Source: Bradyrhizobium sp. PSBB068
Lineage (GTDB): Bacteria > Pseudomonadota > Alphaproteobacteria > Rhizobiales > Xanthobacteraceae
DNA length: 64,000 nucleotides
Direction of reading: 5' to 3'
Assembly: GCA_016839165.1 (NCBI GenBank)
Contig: CP069300.1
Location: forward strand, 4,526,001-4,590,000
In this document: positions 33,139 to 39,614 of the stretch, piece after piece
Numbering within the stretch: the stretch's first letter is position 1
Layout: every line of letters begins with the position of its first letter
Made by a program: the position numbers and the translations under genes
The notes under the pieces: model-generated
Seen by the model: only the letters and a program-made list of their open reading frames with translations
Databases searched by the model: none
Told to the model about the DNA's origin: nothing

Positions 33139-36100
33139 TCACGCAGCGATCTCGCCCCTCGCCGCCACGCTTTCGAGCCGTGGCGTGGCGGCGGCGCGAT
33201 GGTCGCGGGCGATCAGGATGTAGAAGGTCGGCAGCACGAACAGCGTGAACAGCGTGCCGATCAGCATCCCCATCACCACGACGATGCCGATCGCGAAGCG
33301 GCTCGCCGCGCCTGCGCCGTCGGCATAGAGCAGCGGCGCGAGGCCGGCGACCATCGCGGCCGTCGTCATCAGTACCGGCCGCATGCGCACGACGGCCGCC
33401 TTCTGGATCGCGGCAACGCGGTCGAGTCCTTCATGGTGCTGGATCTCGTTGGCAAAGCTCACCATCAGGATGCCGTGCTTGGAGATCAGCCCAATCAGCG
33501 TGACGAGCCCGATCTGGGTGTAGATGTTCAGCGTGGTGAAACCGAAATACAGCGGCAGCAGCGCGCCGCAGACCGCGAGCGGCACCGTGACCATGATGAC
33601 CAGCGGATCGCGAAAACTCTCGAACTGCGCCGCCAGCACCAGGAAGATCACGATCAGCGCCATGCCGAAGGTGACGATCAGGCGGTTGCCCTCCTGGACG
33701 TATTGCCGGCTGTCCGACAGCCAGTCGACCGTCATGCCCGGCGACAGCTTCTGCGCCTGCATGAAGGACACCGCCTGTCCCATGGTCACACCGGGCTTGA
33801 GCACCGCCGAGATCGTCGCCGCGTTCATCTGATTGAACTGCGGCAGCCGGTTCGGCTCCGGCTTGACGTCGATCTTGATCACCGTCGACAGCGGGAACAT
33901 CTGGCCCGAGCTGGAACGCACGTTGAAGTTTCCGAGATTCTCCGGCGTGACCCGGTCGGCCTGGCGCACCTGCGGGATCACCACGTAGGAGCGCTCGAAG
34001 AAATTGAAGCGGTTGACATAGTTCTCGCCGACCAGCACCGCGAGCGTATCGGCGATGGTCTGCATGCTGACGCCCGCCTCGGCCGCCTTGGCGTGATCGA
34101 TCGTGATCCGCGCGGTCGGGCTGTCGAAGGCGAGATCGCTGTCGACGAAGACGAACAGCCCGCTCTTCCAGGCCGCTCCCTTCAAAGTCTCGACCTCCTG
34201 ATAGATGCTGGCGAAATCGCCGGCCGAACGCACCACCATCTGGAACGGCAGGCCGCCGGTCGCCGCCGGCAGTGCGGCCGGCTGGAACGGCGTCACGCTG
34301 GCGCCGAGCACGCCGTAGGACATGCCGTAGAGCTGGTTCTGGATGTCGTCGGCGGAACGCTTGCGCTTGTCCCAGTCGGTCAGGTTGATGCCGCCGAAGG
34401 CCCGGTTCTGTCCGTCATTGCCGTTAAGCACCCAACTCGACTGATACTCCGGAAACGAGCGATACATCTGCTCGATCTGATCGGTGTAGCGCGTCGTGTA
34501 ATCCACGCTGGCATATTGCGGGGCCCTGAGCACGGTGAACACGTAACCCTGGTCTTCCGGCGGCGCGAGCTCGCGCTGGCTGCCAAGGAACAGCACCACG
34601 ATCGCGGCCAGCACGCTGACGGCAACCACCAGCACCGCGGTACGCATCCTAAGCGTCGCTGCCAAGAGCCAGCTGTAGCCGCGCGACAGCTTCGAGAACC
34701 GGTACTCGACAAAGCGGGCAAACCGGCCATGCGAGGTCGCTTCACCCAACAGCTGCGAGCTCATCATCGGCGACAGGGTCAGCGCGACCACGCCCGATAC
34801 GATCACCGAGCCCGCCAGCGTGAAGGCGAATTCGCGGAACATGCTGCCGGTGAGGCCGCCCATCAGGCCGATCGGGGCGTAGACCGCGGCAAGCGTGATC
34901 GTCATCGCGACCACGGGGCCGATGATCTCGCGCGCGCCGATCAAGGCCGCCTCGGCCGGCTTCAGCCCCTCTTCGATGTGGCGATGGATGTTCTCCACCA
35001 CGACAATGGCGTCGTCGACGACGAGCCCGATCGCGAGCACCATCGCAAGCAGGGTCAAGAGGTTGATGGAAAAGCCGAGCGCCAGCATCATCGCGGCGGT
35101 GCCGACCAGCGACAGCGGCACCGTGACGACAGGGATCAGCACCGAGCGGAACGATCCGAGGAACAACAGGATCACCACCACGACGATTACGATCGCCTCG
35201 ACCAGTGCGTGCTGGACCTCCGAGATCGAGGCCTTGACGAAGTGAACGATGTTGAAGACGTCCCTGACTTGCAGGCCGGGCGGCGCCGCCCGGTTGAGAT
35301 CCCCGATCACCTTGTTGGTGGCCGCGACGATCTCCAGCGGATTGCCGTCGGGGGTCGGCTGCACGCCGATGAACACGGTCGGCGTGCCGTTGTCGCGCGC
35401 ATTGGCATCGTAGTTCTCGCCGCCGATCTCGAGTGTCGCGACATCGCCGAGCCGCACCAAACCGCCGCTGCCGGCACCGGTCTTGATCACCATCTTGCGG
35501 AAATCGTCGAGATTCCTGAGATCGGTCTGCGCCGCGATGTTGGTGACGGTGATCTCGCCGCGCAGCCGGCCCGGCGCCGACTGCACGTTGTTGGCGCGCA
35601 GCGCCGCCGCGATATCGCCCGCGGTCAGCCCGCGCGCCGCAAGCTTGAACGGATCGATCCATACCCGCATCGCCAGCGCCGCGCCGCCCAACGTATCGGC
35701 CGACGCGACGCCGGGCACGGACGTCAACAGCGGCTGCGCCACGCGGGTGGCGAAGTCGGTGATTTCAGCGGAGCTCAGCGTCGCGCTGGTGAAGGCGATG
35801 TACTGCACCGCCGACGCGCCGTCGGTGATCTTGGTGATGACAGGGTCGAACACGCCGGCGGGCATGCGGTACTTGACCTGCTGCACCTTGGCGAGCACCT
35901 CGGTCATGGCACGGTCGGCGTTGGCGTTGAGCACCAGCTTGGCCTTGATCTGGCTCGTGCCGAGCGTCGAGTTCGAGGTCATGTACTCGATGCCATTGGC
36001 GGTCGCGATCGACTGCGCGATGACAGAGGTGACGAACCCCTGCATGACGTCCTGGGTCGCACCGGGGAACGAGACGTCGACCTGGATCGTCGCGCTCTCC

Positions 36101-36219
36101 ATGCTGGGATATTGCCGGACCGGCAGCGAGACCATCGCTGCGGTGCCGATCAGAAGGATCAGCAGGCTGACGACCGTCGCCAGGATCGGTCGGCGGATGA
36201 AGATGTCGGTGAAATGCAT
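33139..36219 (-). CDS. RND efflux transporter permease
   Basis: A 1026-residue inner-membrane pump of the AcrB/MexB superfamily with twelve membrane segments and two large periplasmic loops. It begins FTDIFIRRPILATVVSLLI. The proton-relay Asp pair is in GLVVDDAIVVVENIH (about 407-408), and the second half has GLISKHGILMV. It exports drugs or toxic compounds using the proton gradient. It lies 29 bases after the adaptor gene, and no outer-membrane factor gene is present, so a shared TolC-like channel is implied. Expression is predicted to be SoxR-controlled through the promoter at 37.4 kb. Confidence 0.95.
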   Translation of the reverse strand: MHFTDIFIRRPILATVVSLLILLIGTAAMVSLPVRQYPSMESATIQVDVSFPGATQDVMQGFVTSVIAQSIATANGIEYMTSNSTLGTSQIKAKLVLNANADRAMTEVLAKVQQVKYRMPAGVFDPVITKITDGASAVQYIAFTSATLSSAEITDFATRVAQPLLTSVPGVASADTLGGAALAMRVWIDPFKLAARGLTAGDIAAALRANNVQSAPGRLRGEITVTNIAAQTDLRNLDDFRKMVIKTGAGSGGLVRLGDVATLEIGGENYDANARDNGTPTVFIGVQPTPDGNPLEIVAATNKVIGDLNRAAPPGLQVRDVFNIVHFVKASISEVQHALVEAIVIVVVVILLFLGSFRSVLIPVVTVPLSLVGTAAMMLALGFSINLLTLLAMVLAIGLVVDDAIVVVENIHRHIEEGLKPAEAALIGAREIIGPVVAMTITLAAVYAPIGLMGGLTGSMFREFAFTLAGSVIVSGVVALTLSPMMSSQLLGEATSHGRFARFVEYRFSKLSRGYSWLLAATLRMRTAVLVVAVSVLAAIVVLFLGSQRELAPPEDQGYVFTVLRAPQYASVDYTTRYTDQIEQMYRSFPEYQSSWVLNGNDGQNRAFGGINLTDWDKRKRSADDIQNQLYGMSYGVLGASVTPFQPAALPAATGGLPFQMVVRSAGDFASIYQEVETLKGAAWKSGLFVFVDSDLAFDSPTARITIDHAKAAEAGVSMQTIADTLAVLVGENYVNRFNFFERSYVVIPQVRQADRVTPENLGNFNVRSSSGQMFPLSTVIKIDVKPEPNRLPQFNQMNAATISAVLKPGVTMGQAVSFMQAQKLSPGMTVDWLSDSRQYVQEGNRLIVTFGMALIVIFLVLAAQFESFRDPLVIMVTVPLAVCGALLPLYFGFTTLNIYTQIGLVTLIGLISKHGILMVSFANEIQHHEGLDRVAAIQKAAVVRMRPVLMTTAAMVAGLAPLLYADGAGAASRFAIGIVVVMGMLIGTLFTLFVLPTFYILIARDHRAAATPRLESVAARGEIAA

Positions 36220-36248
36220 GATGCTTGCTTCGGGCGCCGCTCGCGGAG

Positions 36249-37358
36249 CTAGCGCCCCTTCTCCTGCGTTTCGGCCATGGTCATCTGCACGGCTGCGCCG
36301 GGCACGACGCGGAGCTGGCCTGATGTGACGATGTGGTCGCCGGGTGCAAGCCCGTGCTCCACCACGACGCGCTCGCCGATCCGCTGCCCGGTTTTGACCG
36401 CGACACCGATCGCCTTGTTGTCGCGCACGACGAGCACGCTCTCGCCGGATGCGCTGGTCTGGATCGCGGTGACCGGCACCACGATCGCATCCAGCTGCGG
36501 CGGCAGCACCACGTTGACCGTCACGAACAGGCCGGGCCGCAGCAGCCGGTCGGGATTATCGAACAGGGCCTGCACGAGGACATTGCGGGTGTCCTCGGCG
36601 ACCTGCGGTTCGATGGCATTGATCTTGGCCTCGAACACCCGATCGGGGAAAGCATCGGTACGGATCGTCACCGCGCCTCCCACCTTCAGATTTGACAGGC
36701 GCTGCTGCGGAACGGTGAAATTGGCATAGAGCTGGTCGAGCGCGGTCAGCGTGGCGAGCGCATCGCCTGCGTTGACGTATTGACCGAGATTGACCTTGCG
36801 CAGGCCGATCTGGCCTGCGAACGGCGCCCGGATCGTCGTCTGCGCGATCTGCGCATCGAGCTGCTCCACCGAGGCGTCGGCCTGCTTCAGGTCTTCCTGC
36901 CGCTGTTGCAGGGTCTCCTGGGTCACGAATCCGGACGGCGCGAGCCCCTGGGAGCGCTTCTCCTGCAATTGCGCGAAGCGTCCCTTGGAGACCGCAACGG
37001 CGCGCGAGGCGCGCAGCGGCGCGTCATAGAGCTGCACCAGCGGCGCGCCCGCGGCGACGTCGGTGCCGGCGTCGAAATTGATCGCGGTGACACGCCCGGC
37101 CACTTCGGGCGACAGGATCACCTGCCGCACCGCCTGCAGCGAGCCGATCGCCTCGAGCCCGCGCGGCAGGGTTTCGGTCCGCACCACCATGGCCGCCACC
37201 GGCGTCGGCGGGGCTTCGGCGGACGGCTTGGCGACCGCTCCGCCGCCGCGCCATGCCAACAATGCAGCGGCAGCCGCGCCAACCAGGAGGACAGCAATGC
37301 CGAACGGCATTGCGCGGGCGCGCAGCGACCGGCGAGAAAAAGATGATGCGGACGGCAT
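36249..37358 (-). CDS. RND efflux periplasmic adaptor (membrane fusion protein)
   Basis: A 369-residue adaptor with an N-terminal membrane anchor (MPFGIAVLLVGAAAAALLAW). The split biotinyl-lipoyl domain (EVAGRVTAINFDAGTDVAAGAPL ... IRAPFAGQIGLRKVNLGQYV), a helical hairpin and a beta-barrel (DQLYANFTVPQQ) follow. It links the RND pump to an outer-membrane channel. ATG 37358 begins a basic stretch SFSRRSLRARA. The same 5' segment, with its SoxR-box promoter, is duplicated at 38.8-39.0 kb. Confidence 0.93.
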   Translation of the reverse strand: MPSASSFSRRSLRARAMPFGIAVLLVGAAAAALLAWRGGGAVAKPSAEAPPTPVAAMVVRTETLPRGLEAIGSLQAVRQVILSPEVAGRVTAINFDAGTDVAAGAPLVQLYDAPLRASRAVAVSKGRFAQLQEKRSQGLAPSGFVTQETLQQRQEDLKQADASVEQLDAQIAQTTIRAPFAGQIGLRKVNLGQYVNAGDALATLTALDQLYANFTVPQQRLSNLKVGGAVTIRTDAFPDRVFEAKINAIEPQVAEDTRNVLVQALFDNPDRLLRPGLFVTVNVVLPPQLDAIVVPVTAIQTSASGESVLVVRDNKAIGVAVKTGQRIGERVVVEHGLAPGDHIVTSGQLRVVPGAAVQMTMAETQEKGR

Positions 37359-37422
37359 TTTGATTCCAGAACAGCGAACCCGACGGCTTCGCCGGGTGCT
37401 TGCCCCTTGCAAGCTCGCGGAT

Positions 37423-37453
37423 GTTATAGAACCTCAAGCATGGTTGAGGTCAA
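37423..37453 (-). promoter_or_regulatory. SoxR-box promoter of the RND efflux operon
   Basis: Minus-strand TTGACC (37453-37448) and TATAAC (37428-37423) are 19 bases apart, the overlong spacing typical of MerR/SoxR-activated promoters. The spacer holds the dyad ACCTCAA-N6-TTGAGGT (37431-37450), which matches the known SoxR box CCTCAAgttaacTTGAGG closely. soxR is encoded 1.6 kb upstream. Confidence 0.88.
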
Positions 37454-37518
37454 GACCAGGCAGATTGCAGAACCTCCAATCACGGGAATTCCGACCGTCG
37501 CGTCCGCTCACATCTTCG

Positions 37519-38733
37519 TCATGCTGCTCGCCGCCCAGCCCTGAAGCCATGCGCTTTTGCCTGCCACACGGTGGCCAGCGCAGTCATGACGAGGGGAAGT
37601 AAAATCCACGGCAGCCAACCAGGTCCGGCCTGGTCGGTGACGAGTCCTCCGATCAGTCCTCCCCCGGCCACCGCGAGATTGAAGACCGTGACGAGGATGG
37701 ATTGAGCGACGTCAGCGTGGTCACCCGCCGAATCCGCCAGTGCCGTTTGCAGCAGCGTGGGTGCGCCCCCGAAAGTCAGTCCCCAGGCCGCCACGCCGAT
37801 CAGCACCAGCACGGCAGAGTGATGCGGTATCGCCAGAAGAATGGCGGCGACAGCGAAGGCAGCCAAGCTGATCAGCGTCAACGCCCGCAACTGGCGATCC
37901 ACCAGAAGTCCGGTGCCCCATATGCCGACGACCGACGCCACGCCGAAGACGAGCAGGATGAGGTCAAGGCGCAGATCCGTTCCGGTCGCACCAAGGAACG
38001 GAGCGACATAGGTGTAGAGGATGTTGTGCGCGAGTATCCATGCGAACAGCACCAACAGGACCGGCCGAACCCCGGGAATGAGAAAGACAAGGCGGACGGG
38101 CAAACGTTGATGCCGGGCTTGACCAGGAAAATCAGGGACGGCGAGCCGGACCCACGCCAACAGCAACAATGCGATGGCGGACATGATGTAAAAGACGGCC
38201 CGCCAGTCGAACATCCCGCCCAGCCATGACCCGAGCGGCACGCCGAGCGAAAGCGCGATGGGTTGCCCGACGCCGACAATCGCCATCGCCCTGCCTTGCA
38301 GGTTCTGCGGAGCCAGCCGCCGCGCATAGCCGGCGACCAGCCCCCACACCACGCCGGCCGACATGCCGGCGACAAAGCGGGCCACGAGTGTCAGCCCGTA
38401 TTGGGCAGAAACCGCCGTCATCGTGTTGAAGATCAGCAACCCCGCAATCGCCAGCAGGAACAGCGGGCGGCGATTCCAGCTCCGCGTCGCCGCAATCACC
38501 GGAACGGCGGCGACAACCGACCCGAGCGCGTAGAGCGTAACCGTCTGCCCTGCCATGGCTTCCGACACGCCGAGGCCAGTGCCGATCTGCGGAAGCAAAC
38601 CGGCGGGCATGTTCTCGGTCATGATGGCGAGGAAGCCCGCCACGGTGAACGCCAGCAATTGCCCGACCGGAAGGCGGTCTTGAGCGCTGCCAGCCTCTAG
38701 TCTGGCGGCATGAATATTCTCTGAGACAGTCAT
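37519..38733 (-). CDS. MFS transporter, DHA1 type
   Basis: A 404-residue twelve-segment exporter. Typical motifs are TENMPAGLLPQIGTGLGVS in the first helix and loop, GRAMAIVGVGQPIALSLGVPLGSWLGG (antiporter motif C region) and the GLLVDRQLRAL loop. It resembles the arabinose/drug exporter (AraJ/YdhP) branch. It begins 3 bases after the stop of a 57-residue remnant of the RND adaptor gene and lies under the second SoxR-box promoter, so redox-cycling drugs are likely inducers. Confidence 0.9.
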   Translation of the reverse strand: MTVSENIHAARLEAGSAQDRLPVGQLLAFTVAGFLAIMTENMPAGLLPQIGTGLGVSEAMAGQTVTLYALGSVVAAVPVIAATRSWNRRPLFLLAIAGLLIFNTMTAVSAQYGLTLVARFVAGMSAGVVWGLVAGYARRLAPQNLQGRAMAIVGVGQPIALSLGVPLGSWLGGMFDWRAVFYIMSAIALLLLAWVRLAVPDFPGQARHQRLPVRLVFLIPGVRPVLLVLFAWILAHNILYTYVAPFLGATGTDLRLDLILLVFGVASVVGIWGTGLLVDRQLRALTLISLAAFAVAAILLAIPHHSAVLVLIGVAAWGLTFGGAPTLLQTALADSAGDHADVAQSILVTVFNLAVAGGGLIGGLVTDQAGPGWLPWILLPLVMTALATVWQAKAHGFRAGRRAA

Positions 38734-38736
38734 GAT

Positions 38737-38910
38737 TTACTCATCAGGGTGGAGAAGAAGGTGGCGATGTCGCCTTCGCATTGACCGGCGGCGAGGATGT
38801 TCGGCCGGTCCGGCAGGCGCGGCGGGGACGGCGACCAACAAGCAGGCAATGCGAAGCAGCACTGCGCGAGCACGCAGCGGCGCGCGCGAAGGAGATGACG
38901 CGGACGGCAT
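38737..38910 (-). pseudogene. Truncated 5' copy of the RND adaptor gene (57-codon remnant)
   Basis: MPSASSPSRAPLRARA here matches MPSASSFSRRSLRARA of the intact adaptor at 37358. The matching continues upstream through the 5' untranslated region and promoter, then the frame degenerates after about 30 codons into an Arg/His-rich tail ending LLLHPDE. It stops at TAA three bases before the MFS start. It is a remnant of a duplicated segment and may now act as a leader that couples translation to the MFS gene. Confidence 0.7.
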
Positions 38911-38973
38911 TTCGATTCCAGAACGGCGAGCCGGCGGTATCAGCCGGATGCTTGCTCCTGCAAGCTGCCGAGT

Positions 38974-39004
38974 GATATAGAACCTCAAGCATAGTTGAGG
39001 TCAA
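38974..39004 (-). promoter_or_regulatory. Second SoxR-box promoter, upstream of the MFS pump and beside soxR
   Basis: Minus-strand TTGACC (39004-38999) and TATATC (38979-38974) with a 19-base spacer containing ACCTCAA-N6-TTGAGGT (38982-39001). It differs from the 37.4-kb copy by single bases in the core (GCATAG against GCATGG). It faces the MFS gene and lies 29 bases from the divergent soxR start, so SoxR bound here may also affect its own gene. Confidence 0.85.
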
Positions 39005-39029
39005 CAGGCCGAACACAGGATCGTCCGCG

Positions 39030-39506
39030 ATGGTGCCAGCCACCGAGCTTTCAGTCGGCGAAGTCGCAAGGCGCAGCGGGCTCGCAGTCTCCACTCTTCA
39101 CTTCTACGAGACCAAGGGGTTGATCGCGAGCCGGCGCACCGGCGGCAATCAGCGGCGTTATCCGCGCGGCGTGCTGCGGCGGATCGCGGTGATCCGGATC
39201 GCCCAGCGCGCCGGAATTCCGCTGGAGGAGATCAGGCAGACTTTTTCCGCGATACCACTGGAGCGCGCTCCGACGCTGCGCGAGTGGGAGCGCGCGATGC
39301 GGAACTGGACCGCTGCGTTGCAGCAGCGGATCGACGATCTCACTGATCTCAGGGACAAGCTGTTCAGCTGCATCGGCTGCGGCTGCCTGTCGCTGACTGA
39401 TTGCCCGCTACGCAATGGCGAGGACAGGCTCGGCACCCAAGGCCCCGGCCCGCGCGTCCTGATCACTGCTGCCGAACGCCGCCAGCGGCGCAAGCGGCAG
39501 GGCTGA
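39030..39506 (+). CDS. soxR: Redox-sensitive transcriptional activator SoxR
   Basis: A 158-residue MerR-family dimer. The DNA-binding helix-turn-helix is at about 7-30 (LSVGEVARRSGLAVSTLHFYE), followed by a long dimerisation helix. The [2Fe-2S] cluster motif C-X2-C-X-C-X5-C is complete (Cys114, 117, 119, 125). Oxidation of the cluster by redox-cycling compounds activates promoters with 19-bp spacers. No soxS is present; in non-enteric bacteria SoxR directly controls efflux genes, which fits the two boxes before the RND and MFS pumps here. Confidence 0.96.
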   Translation: MVPATELSVGEVARRSGLAVSTLHFYETKGLIASRRTGGNQRRYPRGVLRRIAVIRIAQRAGIPLEEIRQTFSAIPLERAPTLREWERAMRNWTAALQQRIDDLTDLRDKLFSCIGCGCLSLTDCPLRNGEDRLGTQGPGPRVLITAAERRQRRKRQG

Positions 39507-39614
39507 GACCGGACGCCACCACCGACAAGTTGCGCACAACCTGCCATTGGTCACATGCCATCGGGTGATTCTCGGTTATGCTGGCCGGACTGCTTGACCC
39601 TAGGGAGTCCCAGA

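Follow-up and report, generated by a model that had tools for sequence, protein, structure and literature searches.

Organization of the soxR Locus

The window analyzed here is the whole 64,000-nucleotide stretch of Bradyrhizobium sp. PSBB068 DNA. It contains a soxR gene on the plus strand and, on the minus strand, genes for an MFS transporter, an RND periplasmic adaptor, and an RND inner-membrane pump, with one SoxR-type promoter between soxR and the MFS gene and a second between the MFS gene and the adaptor gene (Table 1). The cluster cysteines of the soxR product are Cys 114, 117, 119, and 125, and the protein aligns to the structure of Escherichia coli SoxR (2zhg) with an E value of 4e-47. 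In its phylogenetic tree, this soxR has an unusually long branch of 0.194; the eight ingroup loci have 0.013–0.064, and RND and purL from this genome have branches of 0.036. The solved structures nearest in sequence to the MFS protein are the sugar efflux transporters 6kki–6kkl (E ~1e-26). The protein scores below the family cut-offs for Cmx/CmrA chloramphenicol transporters (134.3 vs. 400) and PRK03545 sugar efflux transporters (160.5 vs. 401). A crude hydropathy analysis returned 15 overlapping segments for a family characterized by 12 transmembrane helices.

Table 1. Features of the soxR locus and their positions in the window.
Feature	Position	Strand	Remarks
RND inner-membrane pump gene	33139..36219	-	PF00873, 865 bits; NF033617, 1171.8 bits (below the cut-off of 1250)
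RND periplasmic adaptor gene	36249..37361	-	ATG at 37361; TIGR01730, 251.7 bits (cut-off 94.9)
Left copy of duplicated segment	37276..37464	-	Adaptor-proximal; shorter branch
Left SoxR promoter	37423..37453	-	TTGACC-19-TATAAC, faces the adaptor gene; box 37432-37449, CCTCAAGCATGGTTGAGG
soxR-leader stub	37450..37497	+	Remains between the insertion and the adaptor gene; right boundary approximate
MFS transporter gene	37519..38733	-	404 aa; PF07690, 150 bits, residues 31-355; frame intact
Leader ORF	38737..38910	-	57 codons + stop; chimera of the former adaptor start and other sequence
Candidate relic of oxidoreductase 3' end	38739..38790	-	NAD(P)-oxidoreductase gene often precedes this MFS gene elsewhere
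Right copy of duplicated segment	38831..39012	-	Part of soxR leader, promoter, 5' leader, ~30 adaptor codons
Right (soxR-proximal) SoxR promoter	38974..39004	-	TTGACC-19-TATATC, faces the MFS gene; box 38983-39000, CCTCAAGCATAGTTGAGG
soxR gene	39030..39506	+	158 aa; CxxCxCx5C [2Fe-2S] motif; TIGR01950, 195.9 bits (cut-off 116.9)

Two Copies of a SoxR Promoter

In promoters of the SoxR type, the spacer is over-long (19–20 bp), and the activated regulator compensates for the excess length through a distortion of the DNA (PMC9909328, PMC4411124). Both promoters of the locus have a palindromic box within a -35/-10 spacer of this kind. The first-pass annotation had proposed two minus-strand promoters with 19-bp spacers and matching SoxR boxes at exactly the coordinates listed in Table 1, and the boxes are indeed both exact instances of CCTCAA-N6-TTGAGG. 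Only two such exact sites exist in the 7.67-Mb genome, both at this locus. Genome-wide, seven boxes have one mismatch, and none of the seven is accompanied by at least four of six matches at both -35 and -10.

The similarity extends well beyond the promoters. Local alignment of the two segments, suggested along with the proposal that they share flanks including the 5' end of the adaptor gene, gave a score of 171; the highest control scores were 39 among 500 dinucleotide shuffles and 38 between random window pairs. These scores rule out chance similarity and bear out the proposed homology. The copies are 78.8% identical in a trimmed alignment of 176 columns, and their common part comprises the first ~30 codons of the adaptor, the 5' leader, the promoter, and part of the soxR leader. 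A soxR-leader stub remains in the left copy, and its local alignments to nine relatives (described below) stop between 37479 and 37497; therefore, the shared segment covers both arms of the divergent promoter. Branch lengths are 0.27 for the right copy and 0.057 for the left. Elsewhere in the genome, no further copy of the segment was found except for one 30-bp match.

Within the segment, conservation is uneven. The 31-bp promoters agree at 29 positions, while the flanks agree at 105 of 143 when gaps are counted as differences (Fisher p 0.017) and at 105 of 139 when gap columns are dropped (p 0.028). A narrower core of 29 columns, lacking two -10 bases, gave 28/29 vs. 106/145 (p 0.0036), a comparison superseded by that of the whole promoter. 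With moderate confidence, the pattern fits a promoter that has been kept while a surplus adaptor start drifts.

The sequence downstream of the right promoter agrees with an earlier description of a broken adaptor start followed by the MFS gene. The right copy retains the adaptor start as MPSASS-SR--LRARA----IA-LLV over ~27–30 codons, with 9 of 27 residues differing between the copies (counted by eye), before the register is lost. The frame closes as the leader ORF, which stops 3 nt short of the MFS ATG and in frame with it. A novel joint linking the 5' end of a host gene to a foreign gene, as in promoter capture by tandem duplication, is present, with adaptor codons fused to sequence upstream of the MFS gene. 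A terminator-like site within the leader (38865-38846) was not counted, given two such sites in the region vs. 1.8 in shuffles.

The Locus in Other Bradyrhizobium Genomes

Among 265 genomes of the genus, 12 were found to encode a SoxR of this kind (10 of 195 in an earlier draw). The 12 comprise the window, nine other intact loci (L019–L026, L095), and two further genomes, G242 and L027. All nine intact loci have purL, a Transgly_assoc gene, soxR, one box, the adaptor, RND, and an acyltransferase gene, which is the order of the window without the MFS gene. The comparison among Bradyrhizobium genomes that the first-pass annotation called for thus shows nine relatives with a single box and no MFS gene. 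Its proposal that the segment was duplicated or split by insertion of the MFS gene holds for the insertion and for the extra promoter placed directly before the MFS gene, and duplication in place is favored without reaching significance (see below). In G242, SoxR is 52% identical, and none of the other genes of the locus occurs within the 9 kb fetched. In L027 (G042), soxR is matched from codon 18 only and adjoins RND from about codon 259; this locus looks decayed or mis-assembled because the box and adaptor are absent.

Of the 30 genomes of the genus that are nearest by purL among those listed with loci, 11, including the window, have soxR. The fetched stretches of the other 19 (L097–L115) contain no intact block. 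RND or soxR scars are found in three of these 19 (L102, L106, L114), between the Transgly_assoc and acyltransferase genes. The patchy occurrence of the soxR–adaptor–RND block, together with the scars, points to repeated loss of the block in this clade.

Origin of the MFS Gene

The MFS gene has a very different distribution. With the best few candidates per genome scored, it was found by DNA in one of 265 genomes of the genus, that of the window, and by protein in one of 195; an MFS gene that is common in the genus and has merely moved was rejected on these counts. An order-wide search found MFS matches in 14 of 397 genomes and, besides the window's own copy, the relatives are only 49–55% identical. 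The 90% cluster of the protein has 17 member sequences, whose sources are not given, so close copies may exist in other genomes. The closest other relatives (85–86% identity) come from Acinetobacter dispersus, Nitratireductor, and Xanthobacter, followed at 75–82% by Sphingomonadaceae, Pseudorhizobium, Brucella cytisi, and Xaviernesmea. The gene was apparently acquired from outside the usual gene set of the genus.

We compared 34 MFS loci of other bacteria, 33 from the relatives search plus L131. Of these 34, 28 have a TetR gene no more than 3.5 kb away (weak and on the opposite strand in two of the 28), and 21 have an oxidoreductase gene besides TetR, in the order TetR, oxidoreductase, MFS. 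The 13 loci lacking such an oxidoreductase are mostly the less similar ones. The three-gene operon occurs in distant hosts (L030–L062), with MFS proteins 75–85% identical in several alphaproteobacteria and one Acinetobacter, and ~60–71% identical in beta- and other gammaproteobacteria. Its scattered distribution suggests a mobile pump module. L131 (NZ_CP126033.1) is a TetR–oxidoreductase–MFS operon carried by a conjugative plasmid of B. elkanii, with genes for an IS3 transposase and an arylmalonate decarboxylase nearby. The MFS gene of the B. elkanii plasmid pK07G has 74.6% DNA identity over 76% of the query. The MFS gene of the window thus looks foreign, with relatives that often stand behind their own TetR, which the first-pass annotation had not foreseen.

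Most likely, the MFS gene was part of a TetR–oxidoreductase–MFS operon of this kind until it was captured. Both former partners are absent from the locus, and the genome has no close TetR or oxidoreductase (best matches of 36% and 29% identity). An exact SoxR box was found in none of the 34 loci, so SoxR control of this MFS family is without precedent among them, and a native SoxR-driven state elsewhere was rejected on the same count.

A trace of the former operon may survive in the leader. The oxidoreductase stop ends 4–11 nt before the MFS start in L030–L033, L036, L062, and L131. When both strands of the whole window are scanned with a DNA profile of 11 oxidoreductase tails, the best match, although weak, is at 38790-38739 (6.3 bits, E 0.37), and the next-best match scores 5.2 bits. 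Scaled to the 97 bases of the expected place, the match has a value of ~3e-4 by our own arithmetic. In pairwise comparisons, one of 14 loci gave a relic score above all 500 shuffles. This stretch is a possible relic of the oxidoreductase tail.

Probable Import of the Block and Order of Events

Phylogenetic trees place different parts of the locus with different relatives. Both copies of the segment fall into one group with L026 (100% bootstrap), separate from the eight remaining loci. AU tests reject joining the window to L021 and L024, both for the left copy taken together with the adaptor start (p 0.001) and for the right copy (p 0.007). The RND tree joins the window to L021 and L024 with 100% support, and a position of the window outside the eight loci is rejected (AU p 0.0003). 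Neither placement is singled out by the trees of soxR, purL, or the remaining part of the adaptor. Identity to the nine relatives is 73–80% in the bin at 37100 and 70–78% in the bin at 38830, compared with 82–97% in RND bins and 85–98% in purL bins. The divergent allele type of both copies, set against the RND tree, indicates that the block was probably imported by recombination, and the simplest reading is a source in an L026-like lineage. That the promoter-containing block itself seems to be an import was likewise not anticipated by the earlier annotation.

How the second copy arose is less sharply constrained. The two copies come out as sisters with 69% bootstrap and an AU p of 0.73, vs. 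0.19–0.37 for the alternatives, a difference that is not significant. Private states are shared four times by the left and right copies, six times by the left copy and L026, and twice by the right copy and L026. Duplication in place is favored by these data, not proven.

The most serious alternative is that the MFS gene came with a SoxR promoter and adaptor fragment already attached, both derived from an allele of a related Bradyrhizobium. A circle integrating through one crossover within the promoter region would be an example, and the two copies would then be two alleles rather than products of a duplication at this locus. We hold this to be possible, though not the probable course. Integration by a single crossover yields direct repeats of just this kind, the L026-like character of both copies beside an RND gene of the L021/L024 type agrees with such an arrival, and so does the low number of private states common to the two copies. 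However, no circle or donor locus with box and MFS gene was found, the 34 MFS loci have no exact SoxR box, and the likelihoods slightly favor the two copies as sisters.

It is unlikely that the right promoter is a decaying remnant, with an MFS gene that is silent or owes its expression to chance or to an unrelated promoter. A remnant would fit the decaying adaptor start of the right copy and the long branch of that copy, but conservation is higher in the promoter than in the flanks and the MFS frame is intact over 404 codons. Moreover, the region 36000–39600 contains no other promoter-like site that could serve the MFS gene, an absence that weighs little because shuffles yield 0.3 such sites on average. 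Lastly, repeats can in principle be mis-assembled, but an assembly artefact is hardly credible here, since the copies differ at ~21% of positions and lie in the interior of a 7.54-Mb contig; the genome consists of two contigs and has a completeness rating of 100%.

Proposed Mechanism

We consider it likely that a horizontally acquired MFS gene lies between two copies of a SoxR promoter and that one SoxR drives both the MFS and the adaptor–RND pumps. Redox control of the MFS gene is read from the anatomy of the right promoter and its better conservation. Since both promoters are of SoxR build, one SoxR should drive both pumps. In general terms, the proposed history and function can be rationalized into three steps. 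(i) Capture: the MFS gene would have lost TetR and nearly all of the oxidoreductase, and an extra copy of the promoter, together with the adaptor's own translation start, would have come to stand ahead of it. (ii) Activation: at either promoter, oxidized SoxR would occupy the box within the over-long spacer of 19 bp and bring -35 and -10 back into alignment, whereupon transcription would start from the right promoter into the MFS gene (near 38967, as estimated from the -10 position) and from the left promoter into adaptor–RND (near 37416, estimated likewise). (iii) Translation: ribosomes would start at the old adaptor ATG, read through the leader of 57 codons to its stop, and reinitiate at the MFS ATG 3 nt further on. 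The leader would thereby take the place of a coupling that may formerly have linked the MFS gene to the oxidoreductase gene.

Comparison with Known Systems

SoxR directly drives adaptor–RND operons in non-enteric bacteria, for instance mexGHI-opmD of Pseudomonas aeruginosa. What sets the present locus apart from mexGHI-opmD is a second pump, unrelated to the first, that it seems to drive from a copy of the promoter.

SoxR-driven MFS pumps are also already known. In Stenotrophomonas maltophilia, redox-cycling drugs induce the pump MfsA through SoxR, and an mfs-soxR arrangement occurs in other bacteria, including Agrobacterium vitis (PMC4411124, accessible part). As in the window, soxR of S. maltophilia stands head to head with the MFS pump gene, with the box in a 19-bp spacer. 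Unlike the window, it serves a 14-helix MFS; the text of that report nowhere uses the word RND, and its accessible part describes neither a promoter copy nor an adaptor relic (PMC4411124). The operon of B. elkanii plasmid pK07G has a related MFS gene but differs in that TetR and the oxidoreductase are present and the fetched stretch has no exact SoxR box. What appears new at this locus is the chimera of two pumps with a copied promoter.

Promoter capture of foreign genes has been demonstrated in the laboratory. Tandem duplication combined with promoter capture activates horizontally transferred genes in laboratory selections, in an account that cites the E. coli citrate transporter (PMC11111574, accessible part). 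As in those cases, a new joint here sets a host promoter before a silent or foreign gene; in contrast to them, the present case is natural, old as judged by divergence, and involves a redox-regulated promoter. Among the literature matches listed, none describes a natural copied SoxR promoter before a foreign pump whose relatives are otherwise regulated, which does not prove that none exists.

Implications for SoxR Regulation in Bradyrhizobium

In our judgment, it is laboratory evolution that has best shown how foreign genes become wired into the regulation of their host. Here, several steps of such a capture are readable in a wild genome, namely, the insertion-free state of the nine relatives, the frequent former operon, the joint, and the possible relic. 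It is conceivable, though doubtful, that a copied SoxR promoter, arriving together with a host translation start, transplanted a foreign pump from a ligand-specific TetR to redox control, that the broken adaptor start now acts as a leader passing ribosomes on to the pump gene, and that soxR, both promoters, the MFS gene, and the adaptor start move between Bradyrhizobium lineages as a finished chimera within one recombining block. For this strain, the locus suggests a minimal SoxR regulon of two promoters and two pump families, in which one redox sensor now probably switches on two unrelated pumps.
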